A DNA stretch of 64,000 bases from Novosphingobium jiangmenense. Lineage in GTDB: Bacteria > Pseudomonadota > Alphaproteobacteria > Sphingomonadales > Sphingomonadaceae. Each line of letters begins with the position of its first letter. Within the stretch, counting starts at the first letter, position 1. The position numbers and the translations under genes are program-made. The notes under the pieces were generated by a model that was given only the letters and a program-made list of their open reading frames with translations, was not told the DNA's origin and ran no database searches. Positions 6,865 through 19,090 of this stretch are shown here, piece by piece. The stretch lies in assembly GCF_015694345.1 (NCBI RefSeq), contig NZ_JADQDC010000002.1, forward strand, positions 310,001 through 374,000, in the 5' to 3' direction.

Positions 6865-9135
6865 TTACCCTTCTATTCGCGAAAAGTCCGCAACTTTGTG
6901 CACTGCAGCACGAAAACGGTCAAGCAGCGCCAAGCGACTGGAACGTTTGTTAGCGTCTGCATCATTGACCGTCACCTGATCAAAGAACGCATCGATCGGC
7001 CGGCGCAGGGTCGCCAACGCAGCCATTGCTGCAGTGAAGTCCTCCGCAGCGATTGCCCCTGTGGCCTGCGGTTCGGCAGAGTTCAGCGCATCGACCAGCG
7101 CCTGTTCGGCAGGCTCGCGGGCGTAGTTGCATTCGGGATGCGAGAACTGCGCGGCAACGCCTTCGAGGGCGGGATCATCGACCAGCACGAGCGGGTCTTC
7201 CTCGCCGGTTGGAGGCACGACACCCTCGCCTTCGGACCCGGCGTTGGGGTTGGCGGCGAAGCCTTCCTTCTTGAGGATGTTGGCGGCGCGTTTGTAGCCT
7301 GCGAGGAGGTTGGTGCCGTCCTCGGTGCCGACAAAGGCCTGCAGCGCGTGGACGCGGGCGAGCAGGCGGACGAGATCGTCCTCGCCGCCCAGCGCGAACA
7401 CGGCGTCGATCAGGTCATGGCGGACGCCTGCTTCGCGTTGCTGGACTTTGAGGCGGTCGGCGAAGAATTGCCGCACATGCTCAAGGCCGTCTGCGACTGC
7501 CAACCAGTTGTGTCCGCCAATGCTTGCCCAACCTCGGTAAAGGCCCTCGATCGACCAACGAAGACCGAGTTGGATTTGCAGGGAAAGAATGCCCAAAGTT
7601 GCACGTCGCAACGCGAACGGATCCTTAGATCCAGTGGGCAGTTCGCCGACAGCAAAGAACGAAAACAGCGTATCCAGCTTGTCCGCCAGAGCTACGGCCA
7701 CGGTCACCGGCGCAGTCGGCACGTCGTCGCCCTGGCCGACTGGCTTGTAGTGATCGCGGATGGCGTCGGCTACGGCGTCGGGCAGACCTTCGGCGCGGGC
7801 GTAGTAGCCGCCCATCAGACCCTGGAGTTCGGGGAATTCGCCGACCATTTCGGTGACGAGATCGGCCTTGCACAGGCGGGCGGCGAGTTCGGCCTGGTCG
7901 GCCAACTCTTCCTTCGTCACCCCCGCGGAGGCGGGGGTCCACTCTGGCGCTGTGTTTGACGCTGGATTCCCGCCTTCGCGGGAATGACGAAGGTTTTGGT
8001 TGGCGAGTTCTGGTTTTACGATGCCTTCCTCGACCAGCCAGCGGGCCAGCTTGGCGACGCGCTCGACCTTGTCGGCGACGGTGCCGAGCTTTTCGTGGAA
8101 GGTGATGCGGGAAAGCTTCTGCGCCTGCTCGGCGAGCGGCTTCTTCTTGTCCTGCTCCCAAAAGAAGCGGGCGTCTGAAAGGCGCGCGGCGAGGACCTTG
8201 CGGTTGCCGTCGACGATGGCGGCGCCGCCGTCCTTGGCCTCGATGTTGGCGGTGCAGACGAAGGCGTTGGCGAGCTTTCCGGCGCTGTCGCGGCAGATGA
8301 AGTACTTCTGGTTGACGCGCGCGGTGAGCTGGATGACTTCGGGCGGAACGTCGAGGAAGGCTTCGTCGAAGCGGCCGAGCAGCGGGACGGGCCATTCGGT
8401 GAGGCCGGCGTTCTCGATCACCAGGCCTTCGTCCTCGACCAGCACGAGCCCTGCGGCTTCTGCAGCGGCCTTGGCCTTCTCGCGCACCATGGCCTCGCGC
8501 TCGACATGGTCGACGATGACGTGGCAGGCGCGCAGCTTTTCGGCGTAGTCGCTGGCACTGCCGATGGTGATCTCGCCCGCATGGTGGAAGCGATGGCCAA
8601 GGGTAGCGTAGCCGGACTTGATGCCACCGATCTCACACTCGACCAGATCTTCGCCGAGGATGGCGACGATGCCGGAGAGCGGGCGCACCCAGCGCAGGCT
8701 TTCCGTGGAAAGCGATGCCGCGCCCCAGCGCTGGCTCTTGGGCCAGGGAAAGGCGCGGATGATCGCGGGGACGGCTTCGGCGAGCACGTCCCTGGTGGCG
8801 CGACCAGGCTTTTCGGTGACGGCGAACCACACGCCGTCGCGCTCGGTCAGCTGGTCACGGGTCAAGCCGGTCTTGCGCAGGAAGCCTGCGAGCGCCTGTT
8901 CGGGCGCGGAGGTCTTGGGGCCCTTGGTTTCCTCGGACACGGCCTCGGTGGCCAGCGGCAAATCGCGGGCGATCAGCGCGAGGCGGCGCGGGGTGGACCA
9001 GACGGTGATGTCCCCAGCCTTGAGACCCGCGGCGTCAAGCTGCTTGCGGAACAGCTTTTCAAGATCGGCGCGGGCGCCTGCCTGCATGCGGGCCGGGATT
9101 TCCTCGCTGCGCAGTTCGAGAAGGAAATCGGTCAC
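6865..9135 (-). CDS. glyS: Glycine--tRNA ligase beta subunit
   Basis: 756 aa from a GTG at 9135 that overlaps the glyQ stop (GTGA). The start [17 protein letters not shown] matches the family N-terminus. The protein charges tRNA-Gly as part of the alpha2-beta2 enzyme with GlyQ. The C-terminal half contains the DALR-type anticodon-binding region. Oddity: residues about 381-408 are not GlyS sequence but the translation of a palindromic repeat element (motif HSREGGNP ... TPASAGVT), inserted in frame, so the enzyme carries a loop of about 27 residues. An open extension upstream of 9135 overlaps glyQ and is rejected as the start. Confidence 0.96.
7911..7993. repeat. REP/MITE-like palindromic element inside glyS
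   Basis: The 83-bp element has inverted ends CCTTCGTCA (7911-7919) and TGACGAAGG (7985-7993). Two internal hairpins, CCCCCGC-ggag-GCGGGGG and TTCCCGC-cttc-GCGGGAA, lie on either side of a short centre. The same kind of element, reading GGATTCCCGCCTTCGCGGGA, is a common dispersed intergenic repeat in proteobacteria. Here it lies within a coding sequence, keeps the frame and has no stop codon in the frame of glyS. Confidence 0.85.
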
Positions 9136-10049
9136 TTGCTCCACTCCGGATACTTCGCCGCCCACTGATCGGCGTTCTTTTCCATGTAGGCCTCGCACGA
9201 ACCGCGCGCGAGATCGCGGACGCGGCCCATGTAGCTGGCGCGCTCCTGCACCGAGATCACGCCGCGGGCCTGCAGCAGGTTGAACAGGTGGCTGGCTTCG
9301 ATCGCCTGCTCATAAGCGGCAATGGGGACGCCGGCATCGAGGCTGCGCTTGCACTCTTCCTCGGCGCGGCGGAAGCCTTCGAACAGGCTGTCGGTATCGG
9401 CGACTTCGAAGTTCCACTTCGACATCTGCTTCTCGTTCTCGAGAAACACCTCGCCGTAGGTAACGTCGTGATTGTTGAACTTCAGGTCATAGACGTTGTC
9501 GACGCCCTGGATGTACATGGCGAGGCGTTCGAGGCCGTAGGTCAGTTCGCCTGCGACGGGCTTGCAATCGAAGCCGCCCATCTGCTGGAAATAGGTGAAC
9601 TGGGTGACTTCCATGCCATCGCACCAGACTTCCCAGCCGAGGCCCCATGCGCCCAATGTGGGGGATTCCCAGTCGTCCTCGACGAAGCGGATGTCGTGCA
9701 CCAGCGGGTCGATGCCGATCTCGGCGAGCGACTGCAGGTAAAGCTCCTGCAGGTTTTCGGGGCTCGGCTTCAGGATCACCTGGTACTGGTAGTAGTGCTG
9801 CAGGCGATTGGGATTCTCGCCATAGCGGCCGTCGGTGGGGCGGCGGCAGGGCTGCACGAAGGCGGCGTTCCATGGCTCGGGCCCGAGCGCACGCAGGGTG
9901 GTGGCGGTGTGGAAGGTCCCTGCCCCCATGCGCATGTCATAGGGCTGAAGGATCAGGCAGCCCTGCTCGCTCCAGAAAGCGTGGAGGCGCAGGATCATGT
10001 CCTGCAGGCTCAGGGGGGCGCGGGGAGGCATGAGTTTTGTGTCGGCCAT
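9132..10049 (-). CDS. glyQ: Glycine--tRNA ligase alpha subunit
   Basis: 305 aa from the ATG at 10049 ([10 protein letters not shown]); the frame is open 11 codons further to 10082, but that start is less like the family. Class II aminoacyl-tRNA synthetase core with [37 protein letters not shown] and the [21 protein letters not shown] segment. It binds ATP and glycine and works with the beta subunit encoded immediately downstream, whose start codon overlaps this stop by 4 bp, so the two are translationally coupled. Confidence 0.96.
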
Positions 10050-14354: not shown

Positions 14355-14420
14355 CCGGCGGGAAACAATAGCGAAACACAATTCGTCGCCTTGGCTTACA
14401 CAGGCTCCGGCACAATTTGG

Positions 14421-14469
14421 CGTTAACCACGCAAAATCCTGAAAAACAAGAGTTGGCACCGGTTTTGCA
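14421..14469 (+). promoter_or_regulatory. Sigma-54 promoter and upstream motif of PEP-CTERM gene 1
   Basis: TTGGCAC (14453-14459) followed after 5 bp by TTGCA (14465-14469) puts GG and GC at the -24/-12 spacing of RpoN promoters and matches the consensus with one difference. The motif CGTTAACCA-n4-AAAT starts at 14421, 34 bp before the GG. The second PEP-CTERM gene has an equivalent pair at the same distance. PEP-CTERM genes in several bacteria are known to depend on RpoN and the PrsK-PrsR two-component system. Confidence 0.8.
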
Positions 14470-14508
14470 GAGCATCGACCAGACCGTAATTTACCAACGG
14501 GGGTTAAA

Positions 14509-14958
14509 ATGAACATTCGCTCAACCGCTATTGCCGCAGTCACCCTTGCCGCCATTTCCGCAGCCACGCCCGCGCAGGCGACGTGGTGGCTGAAGCACAA
14601 GCATTATTGCAATTGCGGCCACAGTGGCGGGTCGAGCCTGTGCGGTGGCACTACGACATCGGGCGGCACGACCAGCACTTCGGGAGGCACTACCACAACC
14701 ACGTCGGGCGGTACGACCACGACCTCGGGCGGGACCACGACGACCTCAGGTGGCACCACCACCACTTCGGGCGGGACCACCACCACGTCGGGCGGCACCA
14801 CCACCACGTCGGGCGGCACCACGACGACCTCTGGCGGGACCACGACGAGCACCTCCGGTGGCACTCAGGTGCCTGAACCCGGCATGCTGGGCATGATGGC
14901 GCTCGGGCTGCTCGGCGTGGGCTATGCCCGCTCGCGCCGGATCAAGCCGCGCGCCTGA
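14509..14958 (+). CDS. PEP-CTERM protein with Gly-Thr-Ser heptad repeats
   Basis: 149 aa. Residues 1-24 are a signal peptide (AAISAATPAQA). A short segment HKHYCNCGHSGGSSLC with three Cys residues follows. About 80 residues are then built of SGGTTTT-type heptads. The C-terminus is a PEP-CTERM tail: VPEPGML, a hydrophobic helix and the basic end RSRRIKPR. Such proteins are exported, cleaved by an exosortase and probably become glycosylated surface or matrix material; the Thr/Ser array is an obvious glycosylation target (inference). There is no globular domain. No exosortase gene is in the window. Confidence 0.9.
   Translation: MNIRSTAIAAVTLAAISAATPAQATWWLKHKHYCNCGHSGGSSLCGGTTTSGGTTSTSGGTTTTTSGGTTTTSGGTTTTSGGTTTTSGGTTTTSGGTTTTSGGTTTTSGGTTTSTSGGTQVPEPGMLGMMALGLLGVGYARSRRIKPRA
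14644..14866 (+). repeat. Tandem 21-bp repeat in PEP-CTERM gene 1
   Basis: About ten imperfect copies of a 21-bp unit, roughly ACCACCACTTCGGGCGGGAC, encode the heptad SGGTTTT. Copies in the middle differ mainly at third codon positions (tcg/tca/tct, ggc/ggg), while the edge copies vary in amino acid sequence. Copy number is likely to change by slippage between strains. Confidence 0.85.
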
Positions 14959-14994
14959 CCGGCTACGGTAAGGTATGCGCAGTCTGGCTCGCGG

Positions 14995-16521
14995 TCATGA
15001 TGCTTCGCGCAGGTGATAGCGGGCCAGTGCCTGCCGGAAGATGACGTTGTCCGGTGCAGCTTGCACGGCCTGCTGCAACATCGCAATTGCGGCGGGCACG
15101 TCTCGCCCCGCCCTGACCCGAACCAGACCGGCCATGTAGCTCGTATCCGGATCGTCCGGCCTGAGCGCTCTGGCTCTGTCTGCAGTGCGGATCGCCTCGT
15201 CCGCCCTGCCCTGATGGCTCAAGGCCAGGGCGAGGCGTTTGAGCACTTCGGCATCCTCGCCCTGTTGTGCAAGACGGGAAAACACGTCGACGGCCTTGGG
15301 CCAGTCCTCACGGACGAGCGCGGCATTGCCTTCGGCAGAGAGCGCCTTGACCATGCCTCGACGGGCATCGGCAAGACGCGCTCGATAGGCCGTTGCTTCG
15401 GGAAGACCGGCCGCTTCCGCCGCCTTTGCAGCAAGTTCCAGTTCGCGCTGCTCTGCCATGACGCTGCTGGCAAGCGGCACGACCGTGGCATGGGCAGCGC
15501 GGGCATCGCCGGTGGCCAGTTGCGCTTCGGCCAGCATGAGCCGCGAGAACGGATTGTTGGGCGAGCGGGTCAGCGCGCGCTGGAACAGGGCCCTGGCCTG
15601 CTCGGGATGGCCGGTGCGCAGCATCGCCTCGGCATAGCTCAGGCCGTTGGCCGACAAGGGATCGAGCGTGCGCTCCTCCCTCGCGAGCAATGACCGCACC
15701 GTCGACCAGTCCCCCTTCATCGCGGCGAACTGGACCTTGAGGTCGCGGACGCGCGGATCGTCGGGCGCGATCGTGGCGGCGCGGTTGGTCATGGCCACGG
15801 CTTCGTCGAGCTTGCCTTCGAGATCGAACACGGTTGCGCGCGCGATAAGGGCGTCGGGCACCTTGGGGTAGCGCGCGGCGGCCTTTTCGAGCAGACCGTG
15901 CGCCTCGGCATGGCGGCCGCGCCGCGCTGCAAGGTCCGCACCGAGCATGAGCGCATCGAAGCCATCCGGTTGGAGCCGCGACAGAGCGGCGATCTGACTG
16001 GCGGCGCCATCGAAGTCGCCAGCGCCGATCAGGAAGCGGGCATAGTCTCGCAGCAGCAGCGGGTCGGCGCCGACGGCAACGCCACGGCGCAGGGCCGCCA
16101 GCGCGCCCGAAGCATCCTCCTTTGCGAGCAGAGCGGCGGCGCGCACGCGCTCCGCATGCGAGCTTGCCGCAGAGCCGAGCAGGGCCAGGGCTGCGTCGGG
16201 ATTGCCGCGCAGGAGTGCGGCTTCGGCCCGGATCGGCATGAGGTCCGCAGGCGTGGCTCCTGCCCGCTCGAGCCGATCGGCTGTCGCCGCAGCCCCTTCG
16301 CCGTCACCCAACCGCAATTGCACGTCTGCGAGCAGGCGCAGGGTAGCAGGGTCGTCGCCTTGCTCGGCCAGTGCCGCCACGAGATCGACGCGCGCTGCAG
16401 CCAGTTCCATTCCCGCAATTTCCTGCCGCGCGCGGGCTATGCGGTCGGCGGGACTTTCCCCGCAGGCGGACAAGGTCAGGAACAGGGCAAGGGCAAGACG
16501 AGTGCGCATTGCGCGAGTCAT
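14995..16521 (-). CDS. TPR-repeat lipoprotein, PrsT-like (first copy)
   Basis: 508 aa (or 504 from the ATG at 16509). The signal sequence ends in a lipobox, LTLSAC, so the mature protein should be an outer- or periplasm-facing lipoprotein. The rest is a chain of TPR helical pairs, for example LVAALAEQGDDPATLRLLADVQLRLGD (in part) and ALTRSPNNPFSRLMLAEAQLATGD (in part). It is collinear with the protein at 17472-18977 (shared ALLAKED, DYARF and DW-TVRS-L segments). It matches the PEP-CTERM-system TPR lipoproteins named PrsT but is shorter than the roughly 900 aa PrsT of XrtA loci. It lies tail to tail with PEP-CTERM gene 1. Confidence 0.8.
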   Translation of the reverse strand: MTRAMRTRLALALFLTLSACGESPADRIARARQEIAGMELAAARVDLVAALAEQGDDPATLRLLADVQLRLGDGEGAAATADRLERAGATPADLMPIRAEAALLRGNPDAALALLGSAASSHAERVRAAALLAKEDASGALAALRRGVAVGADPLLLRDYARFLIGAGDFDGAASQIAALSRLQPDGFDALMLGADLAARRGRHAEAHGLLEKAAARYPKVPDALIARATVFDLEGKLDEAVAMTNRAATIAPDDPRVRDLKVQFAAMKGDWSTVRSLLAREERTLDPLSANGLSYAEAMLRTGHPEQARALFQRALTRSPNNPFSRLMLAEAQLATGDARAAHATVVPLASSVMAEQRELELAAKAAEAAGLPEATAYRARLADARRGMVKALSAEGNAALVREDWPKAVDVFSRLAQQGEDAEVLKRLALALSHQGRADEAIRTADRARALRPDDPDTSYMAGLVRVRAGRDVPAAIAMLQQAVQAAPDNVIFRQALARYHLREAS

Positions 16522-16602
16522 GCCAGCGAGCGCTGAATCTTTGGTGAAAGCGGGTGGCGAGAGCGGCGGTGCACCTGTCGGAAATGCTTACGCTCGACAC
16601 AT

Positions 16603-16651
16603 CGTTAATCATTACAAATGGCTGAATTTCGCAGTTGGCACAGTCATTGCG
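16603..16651 (+). promoter_or_regulatory. Sigma-54 promoter and upstream motif of PEP-CTERM gene 2
   Basis: TTGGCAC (16635-16641), 5 bp, TTGC (16647-16650): GG and GC are correctly spaced for RpoN. CGTTAATCA-n4-AAAT starts at 16603, 34 bp before the GG, exactly as in front of PEP-CTERM gene 1. The 17-bp motif is the same at 12 positions; the pyrimidine change C/T is the only difference in its first nine bases. Confidence 0.8.
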
Positions 16652-16694
16652 TTAGTAACGGTTAACCGAATTCCGGTTCATGGGAGCAGTTTCG

Positions 16695-17411
16695 ATGACC
16701 TTCAGGAAAGTTCTTGCCGGCCTTGCTGCCAGCGCGGCAATGGCGATCGCATCGCCTGCCTTTGCGGATTCCGTGACGCTCGGCTCGGGCGACATCGGCA
16801 CCAGCTTCACGCTCAATTACAACGGCTTTTCAGGCGGCACGACGATCGACGGGCTGACCGGCTCGACGACGTTCAAGCTGACCGGGATCTCGGGCAACGA
16901 CTACACGTTCGACTACTCGGTTTCGAACACCAGCTCGGCCCCGGTGACGGACTCGCGCATCTCGAGCTTCGCGTTCAACACCGATCCGAACATCTCGTCG
17001 GCGACCAGCACCGGGGCGTTTTCCTACACCACGCTGTCGTCTAACTACCCGAACGGCATCGGCACGGTCGATGTCTGTTTCAAGGATGCGCAGACCGGCA
17101 GCTGTGCGGGCGGTGGCAGCGGTGGCCTGACCCTTGGCCAGACCGGCACCGGCTCGTTCACCTTGAGCTTCTCGCAGCCGGTCAGCTCGCTTACGCTGAG
17201 CGACTTCTATGTCCGCTACCAGTCGATCGCGGGCGTGCCCGGCATCAGCTCGGCCAGCGGTTCGGGCACGCTCAGCAGCACGGGTGGCTCGACCGGTGGT
17301 ACGCCGGTTCCGGAGCCGGGCATGCTCGGCCTGCTCGGTGCGGGCCTTGTCGGTCTGGCTCTCGCACGCCGTCGCCAGTCGGCACCGCAGCGGCTTGCCC
17401 TCGCCGCCTGA
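16695..17411 (+). CDS. PEP-CTERM protein, cistern-like
   Basis: 238 aa from the ATG at 16695, chosen because GGGAG (16682-16686) gives it a good ribosome-binding site; the upstream in-frame ATG at 16680 has none. Signal peptide ends ASPAFA. The mature part is a beta-rich, Ser/Gly/Thr-rich domain with two Cys in VCFKDAQTGSCAGG. The C-terminus is VPEPGMLGLLGAGLVGLALA followed by RRRQ, a PEP-CTERM sorting tail. The composition and paired Cys recall the cistern family of sphingomonad PEP-CTERM proteins, an assignment by resemblance. It would be exported and processed by an exosortase encoded elsewhere. Confidence 0.87.
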   Translation: MTFRKVLAGLAASAAMAIASPAFADSVTLGSGDIGTSFTLNYNGFSGGTTIDGLTGSTTFKLTGISGNDYTFDYSVSNTSSAPVTDSRISSFAFNTDPNISSATSTGAFSYTTLSSNYPNGIGTVDVCFKDAQTGSCAGGGSGGLTLGQTGTGSFTLSFSQPVSSLTLSDFYVRYQSIAGVPGISSASGSGTLSSTGGSTGGTPVPEPGMLGLLGAGLVGLALARRRQSAPQRLALAA

Positions 17412-17471: not shown

Positions 17472-18977
17472 TCAGCCTTTTTCGGCGCTGCGCAAATGGG
17501 CAGCGATCGTGGCGTTGCCCGGAGCCTTGGACGCAGCATCGCGCAGCAATGACAGGCCGCGCGCGGGGTCCTTGCCGCTCTCGACCAGCAGCCAGCCCAG
17601 CGTATCCATCACCGAGGCACTGGTCGGGGCAACTTTGTAGGCGCGCTCTGCGAACTCGAGCGCCTTGGTCTTGTTGCCGACCATGCCCTGCGCATAGGCC
17701 ATGTTGTTGAGGACGAGCGGGTTCTTGCCGTCGGTGACGGCGAGCAGGCGTTCGTAGGCGGCGATCGCGTTGCCCCAGTTGGACTGTTTCATCGCGGTGT
17801 CGGCTTGCGCGAGCGTTGCTGCCATCGCCTGCGCGGAGGGGAACTTTGCCTTCTCCGCCAGCTTTGCCGCATCGGGATCGCCGGAGGCTTCTGCCGCCTT
17901 GGCCAGCAGGCGCAAGTCCTCGGCATCGGCAGTCTGGACTTCGGCGAAGGGGCGCATCGTCTCGACCGCGCCGCGCGGGTCGCCTGCGGCAAGTTGCGCC
18001 TTGGCGAGTTCGCGGCGCAGCGTTGCGCTGCCGGGATTGCGGGTGAGCAGGGGCTGGAGCTTGGCGCGGGCCTGTTCGGGCTGCTTCAGCTGAACCAAGG
18101 CCTGCGCATAGAGCACGGTCGCCTCGTCCTTGCCGACCAGCGAAGCTTCGTTGGCCTGCAGCACGCTGCGGACGGTCTGCCAGTCGCTGCGGGCCGCGGC
18201 GGCCCGGGCCTGGAGATAGGCAACCTGCCCCCCGCCCTTGACCTCGGCCAAGGCTTTCAACACGCCCTCCATGTCGGCCGTGCGACCGAGATCGCCCAGC
18301 ACTGCCGCCTTGCCCGCCAACGCAGCGAGATTGCCGGGGTAGGCATCGACGGCGGCTTCGTAGCCCGCGAGTGCCTGCGCCAGGCGGCCTTCGGCGGTGG
18401 CGACTTCGGCATCGGCGAGGAGCGTATCGATCAGGCCCGGGTCGGCTGCCTTGGCGCGGTCAGCCAGAGCGCGGGCCTGCTTGACATCACCGCCCATCAG
18501 CATGAACCGGGCATAGTCCGAGAGCAGGCGGGCATCGGGCTTACCGGCGGCACCGGCCGCGAAGGCCTTGGCCGCACCTTCGCGGTCTTCCTTGGCCAGC
18601 AGTGCAAGCGCGCGCAGGCGTTGTGCGCTGGCCGAGGAATCGGAGCCGAGGACGGTGAGCGCCTCGTCCGCCATGCCGCGCAAAAGGTTCGCCTCGCCCA
18701 GTAGCAGGGCGAAGTCGGCAGGGCGTTTGCCTTCGGGGAGTTTGGTCAGGGACGCCTCGGCGGCGATGCCATCGCCCATGGCCAAGGCGTTGCGGGCGTG
18801 GAGTTCGAGCAACGCCGGATCCTGTGGATTTGACTCAAGTGCGGCGGCAAGATCGACCTGTGCGGCGCGATAATCGTGCGCATCGAAGGCCTTGCGGGCG
18901 CGGTCTGCGCGCTCCTGGGGGCTGTCGGTACAGGCCGCCAGCAGGAGCGGCAGGGTCAGGAACGCCAGCTTCTTCAT
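17472..18977 (-). CDS. TPR-repeat lipoprotein, PrsT-like (second copy)
   Basis: 501 aa from the ATG at 18977, which follows a GGAG site; the open frame beyond it to 19079 is rejected. Signal peptide with lipobox LLLAAC. TPR units fill the protein, including clear late ones (NNMAYAQGMVGNKTKALEFAERAYKVAP in part, and DTLGWLLVESGKDPARGLSLL in part). It is closer to classical PrsT than its paralogue at 14995-16521. PrsT-type proteins accompany exosortase and PEP-CTERM genes and may help assemble or secrete the matrix; mechanism unproven. It converges on PEP-CTERM gene 2 and diverges from ychF. Confidence 0.83.
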   Translation of the reverse strand: MKKLAFLTLPLLLAACTDSPQERADRARKAFDAHDYRAAQVDLAAALESNPQDPALLELHARNALAMGDGIAAEASLTKLPEGKRPADFALLLGEANLLRGMADEALTVLGSDSSASAQRLRALALLAKEDREGAAKAFAAGAAGKPDARLLSDYARFMLMGGDVKQARALADRAKAADPGLIDTLLADAEVATAEGRLAQALAGYEAAVDAYPGNLAALAGKAAVLGDLGRTADMEGVLKALAEVKGGGQVAYLQARAAAARSDWQTVRSVLQANEASLVGKDEATVLYAQALVQLKQPEQARAKLQPLLTRNPGSATLRRELAKAQLAAGDPRGAVETMRPFAEVQTADAEDLRLLAKAAEASGDPDAAKLAEKAKFPSAQAMAATLAQADTAMKQSNWGNAIAAYERLLAVTDGKNPLVLNNMAYAQGMVGNKTKALEFAERAYKVAPTSASVMDTLGWLLVESGKDPARGLSLLRDAASKAPGNATIAAHLRSAEKG

Positions 18978-19090
18978 CGCAATTTTCTCCACGCGTGAAG
19001 GGCTTAGTGCGCCCAATCCCTGAAATTTCCGTGAAGGTTTCCAAATCCCGTGCGGCCCGCTAAAGGCGCGGCCAGCCAAGGAGTTTGAAG

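Follow-up and report, generated by a model that had tools for sequence, protein, structure and literature searches.

The closest described counterpart to the promoters analysed here is the PEP-CTERM cis-regulatory system of Proteobacteria, which comprises PrsK, PrsR and RpoN (Haft et al. 2006, PMC1569441); excerpts of later RpoN work on PEP-CTERM regulation (PMC9850573) were also considered. In the Haft system a 17-nt motif 1 ending in TTTACA lies 32–92 nt upstream of a sigma-54 site, motif 2 (PMC1569441), the mean spacer is 62.8 bp with no element described in it, and section 7 of that paper contains neither a TTAACCA element nor a mention of CtrA. For alphaproteobacterial CtrA, the excerpted sections of PMC6180460 report TTAACCAT and TTAA-N7-TTAA as binding motifs, together with half-sites that occur alone and that, at repressed promoters, overlap the −10 region. 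In Sphingomonas, motility, EPS and biofilm are reportedly under CtrA control (PMC8921679, citing Francez-Charlot 2015). Two Caulobacter systems come near to joining these regulators. At PhvyA and PsciP CtrA shares the promoter with a protein of the NtrC family, but that NtrC reportedly lacks the sigma-54 contact motif and acts on sigma-70 promoters, and the sections of PMC10274813 compared here give no fixed shared layout. The FlbD/ftr flagellar promoters are sigma-54 promoters linked to the cell cycle whose regulator can also repress, whereas CtrA is reported to control early genes, at a previous stage of that cascade (PMC3930126).

We analysed a 64-kb stretch of Novosphingobium jiangmenense DNA (the window) that carries, on the forward strand, two PEP-CTERM genes encoding secreted surface proteins; both products exceed the PF07589 and TIGR02595 cut-offs. 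Gene 1 (14509–14958) has a low-complexity TSGGT body and scores 19.8 bits with TIGR02595 (cut-off 16) and 28.4 bits with PF07589 (cut-off 20.7). Gene 2 (16680–17411, alternative start 16695) belongs to the cistern family (NF033947, 239.5 bits, cut-off 60). Between them, on the reverse strand, lies a TPR lipoprotein gene (14995–16521) that is PrsT-like, its TIGR02917 score of 118.1 bits being under the cut-off of 312.2. Each PEP-CTERM gene is preceded by an exact forward-strand sigma-54 core, TTGGCAC-N5-TTGC, with its −24 GG and −12 GC, at 14453–14468 (TTGGCACCGGTTTTGC) and 16635–16650 (TTGGCACAGTCATTGC). An earlier note had claimed that both promoters also share a 17-bp motif at identical spacing, and this was borne out, far above chance: the motif occupies 14421–14437 (CGTTAACCA-N4-AAAT) and 16603–16619 (CGTTAATCA-N4-AAAT) and at each promoter its first base lies 34 bp ahead of the −24 GG.

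The part of the motif that resembles a CtrA half-site lies on the forward strand at 14422–14429 (GTTAACCA) and 16604–16611 (GTTAATCA), starting 31 bp before TTGG and separated from the core by spacers at 14430–14452 and 16612–16634 on the same strand. The earlier description had overlooked a second, downstream half-site, also on the forward strand and with one mismatch at each promoter: TTTACCA at 14490–14496, 21 bp past TTGC, for gene 1, and TTAACCG at 16662–16668, 11 bp past TTGC, for gene 2. Relative to the transcription start, which at both promoters we presume from the usual sigma-54 spacing, these copies fall at about +11 to +17 and about +1 to +7. Further upstream, each promoter has a forward-strand site of the form GTCG-N7-TTACR, at 14385–14400 (GTCGCCTTGGCTTACA), ending 52 bp before TTGG, and at 16577–16592 (GTCGGAAATGCTTACG), ending 42 bp before it. 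Both distances fit the range of Haft motif 1, which the sites resemble in distance and 3′ end; there they read CTTACA (gene 1) and CTTACG (gene 2), one and two bases off TTTACA. PEP-CTERM targets, the sigma-54 motif 2 and a PrsR encoded in the genome (660 bits, cut-off 502.6) are also in common. The core is that of the already described Haft system, to which the site of PrsR type further upstream (GTCG-N7-TTACA) probably belongs as well. Distinct from the 17-bp motif, this site ends 21 bp upstream of GTTAAYCA in gene 1 and 11 bp upstream of it in gene 2, and PrsR is an unlikely binder of the motif itself, for which it had been suggested.

The two upstream regions had been called otherwise unlike, which needs amending in that both carry GTCG-N7-TTACR besides the motif. 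In an ungapped alignment anchored at the core, 25 of 55 bases are identical from −55 to −1 and 21 of 85 from −140 to −56. In the 64-kb window GTCG-N7-TTACR occurs only at these two promoters (0.30 expected; two or more in 5 of 100 shuffles), as does the exact CGTTAAYCAN4AAAT. The same word taken alone with up to three mismatches is at chance level in the window (8 found, 7.1 expected), as is bare TTAAYC (14 and 11.7). The significance of the motif thus rests on its position and its conservation.

Conservation was assessed with 56 loci (58 promoters) collected by protein similarity, independently of the motif, with 714 other cores as control. Sequences of one genus are related, and counts are therefore not independent events. 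In 43 of the 58 promoters and 3 of the 714 controls, GTTAAYCA (allowing one mismatch) stands at one exact place, with its start 31 bp ahead of TTGG; all three control matches (L090, L115 and L116) adjoin downstream cistern matches missed by the reading-frame filter. Widening the position to 29–31 bp raises the number to 47 of 58. The PrsR-type site, written as GTCG-N7-T[TG]AC[AG], is found at 51 of the 58 promoters and 9 of the 714 controls, and in this set its distance to the core takes only the values 42/43 or 52/53 bp. A downstream TTAACCA (up to one mismatch) is present at 39 of 53 promoters, compared with 10 of 714 control cores, and lies 10–12 bp (24 promoters) or 21–22 bp (15 promoters) past the core, about the predicted transcription start. 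Thirteen of the 53 have the upstream copy only and three the downstream copy only. The spacings that vary do so in steps of about one helical turn, so that the positions appear to be locked to the helix, and the sequences support the proposal of one shared regulator bound on a fixed face.

Across the 53 promoters the consensus is TTAACCA, followed by T in 25, and TTAA is constrained about as strongly as the sigma-54 core while adjacent columns drift. The AAAT half of the original motif is weakly conserved, what persists being mainly AA at −19/−18; together with AWWT at −10 to −7 this gives AT-rich tracts about 10 bp apart in the spacer. By eye the consensus appears to contain a triple 10-bp direct repeat, of which the computed part is the AT phasing with a period of about 10. 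CGGAWWTCCG beside the core was considered as a dyad and rejected: its pairing equals the level predicted by the columns and so gives no support from covariation.

An order-wide scan in which the spacer was left unconstrained found TTAAYCA (up to one mismatch) in 56 of 69 family promoters, with 46 matches at 29/30 bp and 6 at 41 bp; the average in shuffled spacers is 6.5. In 58 promoters that belong to different genera and families, the PrsR-site gap is 41–44 or 52–53 bp in all 30 that carry the TTAACCA element and 50–51 or 60–62 bp in 23 of the 28 without it. TTAA stands exactly 11 bp past the core in 19 of the 30 other-genera promoters with the upstream site and in none of the 28 without. These promoters differ from the Haft system in having short, quantised gaps rather than a mean spacer of 62.8 bp, and in having TTAACCA at a nearly fixed place with a second copy downstream. 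No description of a TTAACCA element was found in the excerpted literature on PEP-CTERM and CtrA promoters. A strict pattern with exact copies on both sides of the core matched only 2 of 397 family genomes; either it is too strict or the arrangement is rare outside the genus.

The scan pattern put forward in the earlier note had a gap of 17 between AAAT and TTGGCAC and gives no match in the genome at up to three mismatches; the true gap is 15. Corrected accordingly, with the leading C dropped and up to three mismatches allowed, it recovers just these two promoters in the window genome. Across the genus it matches 68 of 149 genomes (reversed pattern, 0 of 149). The expectation that the motif precedes PEP-CTERM genes had a mixed outcome in the window genome, where the whole layout stands at two of the four PEP-CTERM genes over the model cut-off. 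The third only just exceeds the cut-off (16.2 bits against 16); its core is degenerate, with TTAACCAT 40 bp ahead of it and no PrsR-type site; the fourth has TTAACC words, but no core scoring at least 16 of 19. One more combination of PrsR-type site, ATTAACCA and core lies upstream of a small membrane protein that is not of the PEP type, and other genera also have the layout ahead of a small, unrelated membrane protein. Of 30 composite loci, 25 precede a PEP-CTERM gene; the exceptions are L031 (contig end), L042 and L049 (unclear), L050 (small membrane protein) and L055 (PII-like gene). The automatic PEP label of the cross-genus scan is loose, some marked frames being chance, and no count rests on it. 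TTAACCA is absent at three other exact cores of the window genome (L001, L007 and L008); the L008 core sits, as judged by eye, before a flgB-like gene.

The suggestion that the motif is a CtrA half-site is now probably the best-supported identity for it. The genome encodes CtrA (427 bits, cut-off 350), and the promoter of its ctrA gene likewise carries the word; across the genus, every one of 30 ctrA promoters inspected has TTAACC words (75 words, against 3.2 in shuffles). In two genomes of one related genus (G213 and G343), full TTAA-N7-TTAAC boxes replace the half-site at the same place. Both window promoters lack the full TTAA-N7-TTAA box, and TTAA-N7-TTAAC is not enriched in the window genome (1, versus 7 in the reversed control). 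Both window promoters are one base off TTAACCAT, agreeing at 7 of its 8 positions (gene 1, TTAACCAC; gene 2, TTAATCAT). Genome-wide TTAACCAT occurs 26 times versus 13 in the reversed control, a twofold difference only, and 6 of the 26 copies begin an opposite-strand ATGGTTAA frame of at least 100 codons. One of these six lies 224 bp before a flagellin-like gene, and another TTAACCAT copy lies 55 bp before a cpaB gene. With the CtrA half-site promoters of PMC6180460 the window promoters share a near-matching word, a genome that encodes CtrA and a copy close to the start, as in repressed promoters. They differ in that the published promoters are described in terms of −35/−10 regions and not of sigma-54 and an enhancer protein, whereas the present ones have a sigma-54 core with a half-site on either side at distances fixed by the helix.

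We give about an even chance to the reading that both promoters are of the PrsR/sigma-54 class and that CtrA, bound on both sides, gates them, likelier as a repressor. The sphingomonad version of this class would then have gained a second regulatory layer. PrsK would phosphorylate PrsR, which would bind GTCG-N7-TTACA and activate sigma-54 RNA polymerase. PrsR is over the cut-off in 134 of 149 genus genomes and 0 of 14 control genomes. CtrA would occupy two TTAACCA half-sites, of which the upstream one (about −57 to −50) lies between PrsR and polymerase and the downstream one (about +1 or +11) covers or closely follows the transcription start. In the motile phase, high phosphorylated CtrA would block or restrain promoter opening, and as CtrA falls PrsR would be free to drive synthesis of matrix proteins. 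PEP-CTERM genes of some genera (g14, g18 and g39), which have a PrsR-type site and core with no TTAACCA at 29/30 bp, count against this reading, as do the unenriched full box and the one-base departures from TTAACCAT. We infer PrsR and CtrA as the binders, CtrA at both sites and net repression from elements whose positions, conservation and joint occurrence are observed directly.

IHF plays a bending or contact role at other sigma-54 promoters; by eye, its consensus does not fit the spacer here. CtrA could act in an IHF-like way at the same sites, bending DNA or touching both PrsR and polymerase, which we regard as possible but doubtful. Rigid placement relative to −24 is at least as much what one would expect of a co-activator as of a repressor. 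A helper between PrsR and polymerase would explain the fixed phasing, that is, the upstream half-site at exactly 31 bp, the PrsR-site distances that come in steps of about one turn, the AT tracts with a period of some 10 bp between half-site and core, and the shorter gaps of element-bearing promoters. Against this, the downstream copy, at or just past the predicted start, has no obvious co-activator role, and half-sites overlapping the polymerase site are those reported for CtrA repression (excerpts of PMC6180460).

It is unlikely that the binder is another winged-helix response regulator or some other protein reading TTAACCA. Related regulators are abundant, since the CtrA search yields 33 matches in the window genome, and TTAACCAT is incompletely matched at both window promoters; yet the same TTAACC word stands at all 30 of the ctrA promoters inspected, and full boxes take the same place in the two genomes above. 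CenR was rejected as a candidate, being reported to read TGA-N8-TGA, with CenKR not identified in Sphingomonadales by the authors (excerpts of PMC9275681). Still less credible, and in our view very improbable, is that PrsR touches TTAACCA as an auxiliary site: the two elements co-occur in phase, but other families and several genera have PrsR-type sites and cores with no TTAACCA at 29/30 bp, and the word recurs at ctrA promoters. That the similarity is without regulatory significance and simply reflects a past tandem duplication of a PEP-CTERM and TPR module is scarcely tenable, for although the two TPR genes are both PrsT-like and corrected-pattern matches are paired about 2.0–2.3 kb apart in several genomes, the cross-genus comparison already disfavours it, with TTAA conserved like the core amid drifting columns and the layout also found before the unrelated small membrane protein.

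Gating by CtrA remains the reading we prefer. With confidence a little short of even, we propose a helically rigid sigma-54 promoter on which PrsR would be held 41–44 or 52–53 bp off and flanking half-sites would let CtrA, the master regulator of the cell cycle, directly gate a conserved small membrane protein as well as matrix proteins sorted by exosortase. Such a layout would be an unusual sigma-54 case, with enhancer spacing quantised by helical turn, and it gives a sharp genome-scan signature of the regulon. No direct link from CtrA to exosortase-sorted proteins was found in the excerpted literature on CtrA and PEP-CTERM; if our reading is true, the two-site CtrA layout on PrsR/sigma-54 promoters supplies that link, which would be testable through two 7-bp words. 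Matrix production may in this way be tied directly to the cell cycle via CtrA-like sites, and, if so, the layout would put a sigma-54 promoter under a cell-cycle lock and wire the motile phase directly to matrix secretion.

Both PEP-CTERM genes of the window, at 14509-14958 and 16680-17411 (both on the forward strand), have the exact TTGGCAC-N5-TTGC core claimed in the earlier note, and at both the motif CGTTAAYCA-N4-AAAT begins 34 bp ahead of the -24 GG, as was also claimed. In the parts of the paper available, Haft et al. (2006; PMC1569441) described a 17-nt motif ending in TTTACA that is followed, after a spacer of 62.8 ± 10.6 nt, by a sigma-54 motif. They saw this pair ahead of 99 of 167 proteobacterial PEP-CTERM genes and attributed it to the enhancer protein PrsR with its kinase PrsK. 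The available passages of later reports show RpoN dependence of a PEP-CTERM gene in Aquincola (PMC9850573) and cite PrsK-PrsR control in Zoogloea (PMC9012009). PrsR is encoded in the window's genome (660 bits; cut-off 502.6), and 134 of the 149 genus genomes have a match above that cut-off. This promoter class is therefore already known, and the shared element is one that lies inside its spacer.

The genome scan proposed in the earlier note, with 17 bases between AAAT and TTGGCAC, gave zero matches because the real gap is 15. When the gap was set to 15, the leading C was dropped and up to three mismatches were allowed, matches were found in 68 of 149 genus genomes, and the reversed pattern matched in none of the 149. 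The free 15-bp stretch of this pattern is itself conserved across the 77 distinct matches. The spacers at 14430-14452 and 16612-16634 carry a conserved palindromic consensus, GAWWTCCG, with AT tracts ∼10 bp apart; no covariation support was found for this palindrome between half-site and core.

To examine the element independently of the motif, we turned to the cistern family of PEP-CTERM proteins, to which the product of the second gene belongs. Cistern proteins of the nearest named relatives, Novosphingobium taihuense and N. subterraneum, are 96 and 93 percent identical, which places the genus as Novosphingobium. Seven cistern sequences were aligned, and the alignment fetched 56 loci through protein similarity; six of its seven rows originated from motif matches, but the loci themselves were found by protein. 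Requiring a sigma-54-like core (score ≥16 of 19) within 250 bp upstream of a PEP-CTERM frame yielded 58 frames in 41 loci and none in the remaining 15, and 714 other sigma-54-like cores from the same DNA served as controls. GTTAAYCA (≤1 mismatch) stood exactly 31 bp before TTGG at 43 of 58 promoters, compared with 3 of 714 controls, and all three control matches (L090, L115, L116) sit just upstream of cistern matches missed by the frame filter; at 29-31 bp the count was 47 of 58. A PrsR-type site, GTCG-N7-T[TG]AC[AG], was present at 51 promoters and 9 controls; its end precedes TTGG by 42/43 bp at 19 promoters and by 52/53 bp at 32, never by an intermediate distance. Five promoters scored just 16 at the core; among the 53 left after their removal, the information in the TTAA columns was comparable to that of the invariant core bases, and the AAAT half reduced mainly to AA at -19/-18.

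A second copy follows the core. TTAACCA (≤1 mismatch) occurred downstream at 39 of these 53 promoters versus 10 of the 714 controls, either 10-12 bp (24 promoters) or 21-22 bp (15) after TTGC; 13 promoters had the upstream copy alone, three the downstream copy alone and one neither. In the window the downstream copies are TTTACCA at 14490-14496 and TTAACCG at 16662-16668, both on the forward strand with the one mismatch allowed. If, as we assume by the usual convention, the C of TTGC is -12, such copies start near +1 or +11. Of 58 promoters outside the genus (49 from the same family, nine from others), 30 have the upstream site, and in 19 of these a TTAA follows the core at exactly 11 bp; none of the 28 that lack the site has TTAA there (Fisher p 6.5e-8, uncorrected for descent). 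Counting against such pairing, besides the promoters above with one copy or none, is that the exact two-sided pattern matched in only 2 of 397 family genomes.

An order-wide scan for a PrsR-type site and core separated by 32-62 free bases identified 78 places in 65 of 396 genomes, and none with the reversed pattern. The gaps clustered at 40-44 (36 places), 50-53 (26) and 60-62 (16), leaving 45-49 and 54-59 empty within the range covered, at whose upper limit of 62 there was a pile-up of 13 places. TTAAYCA (≤1 mismatch) was present in the spacer of 56 of 69 family promoters, compared with an average of 6.5 for shuffled spacers; 46 matches started 29/30 bp and six 41 bp before TTGG. None of nine promoters from other families had it at 29/30 bp. 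PEP..W-type PEP-CTERM genes of other genera (L207, L209, L211, L224-L227, L229, L231) have a PrsR-type site and core with gaps of 51 or 61-62 bp and, lacking TTAACCA at 29/30 bp, form a natural contrast to the window promoters.

The expectation that the motif would mark PEP-CTERM genes held only in part. Of the gap-15 matches that came as loci, 25 of 30 precede a PEP-CTERM frame. The whole layout is found at two of the four PEP-CTERM genes over the cut-off in the window's own genome. C25:247333 (16.2 bits, borderline) has a degenerate core preceded at 40 bp by TTAACCAT, and the PrsR-type site is absent; at C27:171108 there are TTAACC words and no core scoring ≥16. Nor is the layout confined to such genes, because it also precedes a small membrane protein and its relatives. 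The promoter at C3:16127-16200 (minus strand) has a PrsR-type site, ATTAACCA and a core with one mismatch, with no TTAACC seen downstream; its 81-residue product has no Pfam or NCBIfam match. At least 20 of the 58 promoters outside the genus precede relatives of it with an LFVIKT-like N-terminus (by-eye judgement), and this small membrane protein is a second conserved target in many sphingomonad genera. These proteins of ∼80 residues have a start resembling M(L/F)RKIGRLFVIKTR and contain GAVFLAGAKILD (L016, L188-L236). The genome has three further exact cores, among them one ahead of a flgB-like gene (by eye), and TTAACCA is absent from all three. At locus L055 (1501-1547), a PII-like gene precedes an ammonium-transporter-like frame (each identified by eye), and its sigma-54 core also carries GTTAAGCG at the -31 position, which may be chance.

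The earlier note had likened the element to a half-site of CtrA, a regulator of cell cycle and motility. The available text of PMC6180460 reports TTAACCAT and TTAA-N7-TTAA as CtrA motifs, and half-sites overlapping -10 at repressed promoters. CtrA is encoded in the window's genome (NF045991, 427 bits; cut-off 350). TTAACC words were found in all 30 genus ctrA promoters returned from 59 genomes searched (75 words versus 3.2 in shuffles), and TTAACCTT and TGGTTAA are exactly 26 bp apart in 29 of 30. In these promoters (L154-L183) the common form is AAATTAACCTTT, which together with TGGTTAA looks like an autoregulatory pair. The first TTAAC is preceded at 11 bp by a TTTAC-like word, reminiscent of a full CtrA box in degenerate form. 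In two genomes (G213, G343) a full TTAA-N7-TTAAC box replaces the half-site, and three (G473, G280, G383) carry 11-bp repeats of related words. Elsewhere in the window's genome, copies of TTAACCAT are found 55 bp upstream of a cpaB gene and 224 bp upstream of a flagellin-like gene (like flagellin models, below their cut-offs). Genome-wide its enrichment is no more than twofold (26 versus 13 in the reversed control), six of the 26 copies, including the flagellin copy, begin an ATGGTTAA frame of at least 100 codons on the opposite strand, and no enrichment is seen for the full box (1 versus 7 reversed).

Two PrsT-like TPR genes, at 14995-16521 and 17472-19043 (both minus strand), alternate with the PEP-CTERM genes. 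Several genomes also have paired promoter matches spaced by ∼2.0-2.3 kb, a pattern suggestive of an ancient tandem duplication of a module made up of a PEP-CTERM gene and a TPR gene. A glyS-like frame within 6865-9198 (minus strand) contains a 24-residue stretch that resembles an in-frame repetitive palindromic element.

Judged by title, no work tying CtrA to PEP-CTERM was found among the 5.39 million papers searched, outside which most subscription papers fall, and the available parts of PMC12421884, PMC10274813 and PMC3930126 describe no such promoter. In Sphingomonas, motility, EPS and biofilm are reported to be under CtrA control (PMC8921679, in the part available, citing Francez-Charlot 2015). 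Beyond the existence of the sites, we infer from sequence that PrsR would drive sigma-54 polymerase at these promoters and that CtrA, bound on both flanks of the core, would gate them; the rigid phasing points to an ordered complex. Repression is ranked ahead of co-activation, favoured by the half-site copy at the predicted start of transcription, and would fit a switch that restrains matrix proteins during the motile, high-CtrA phase.
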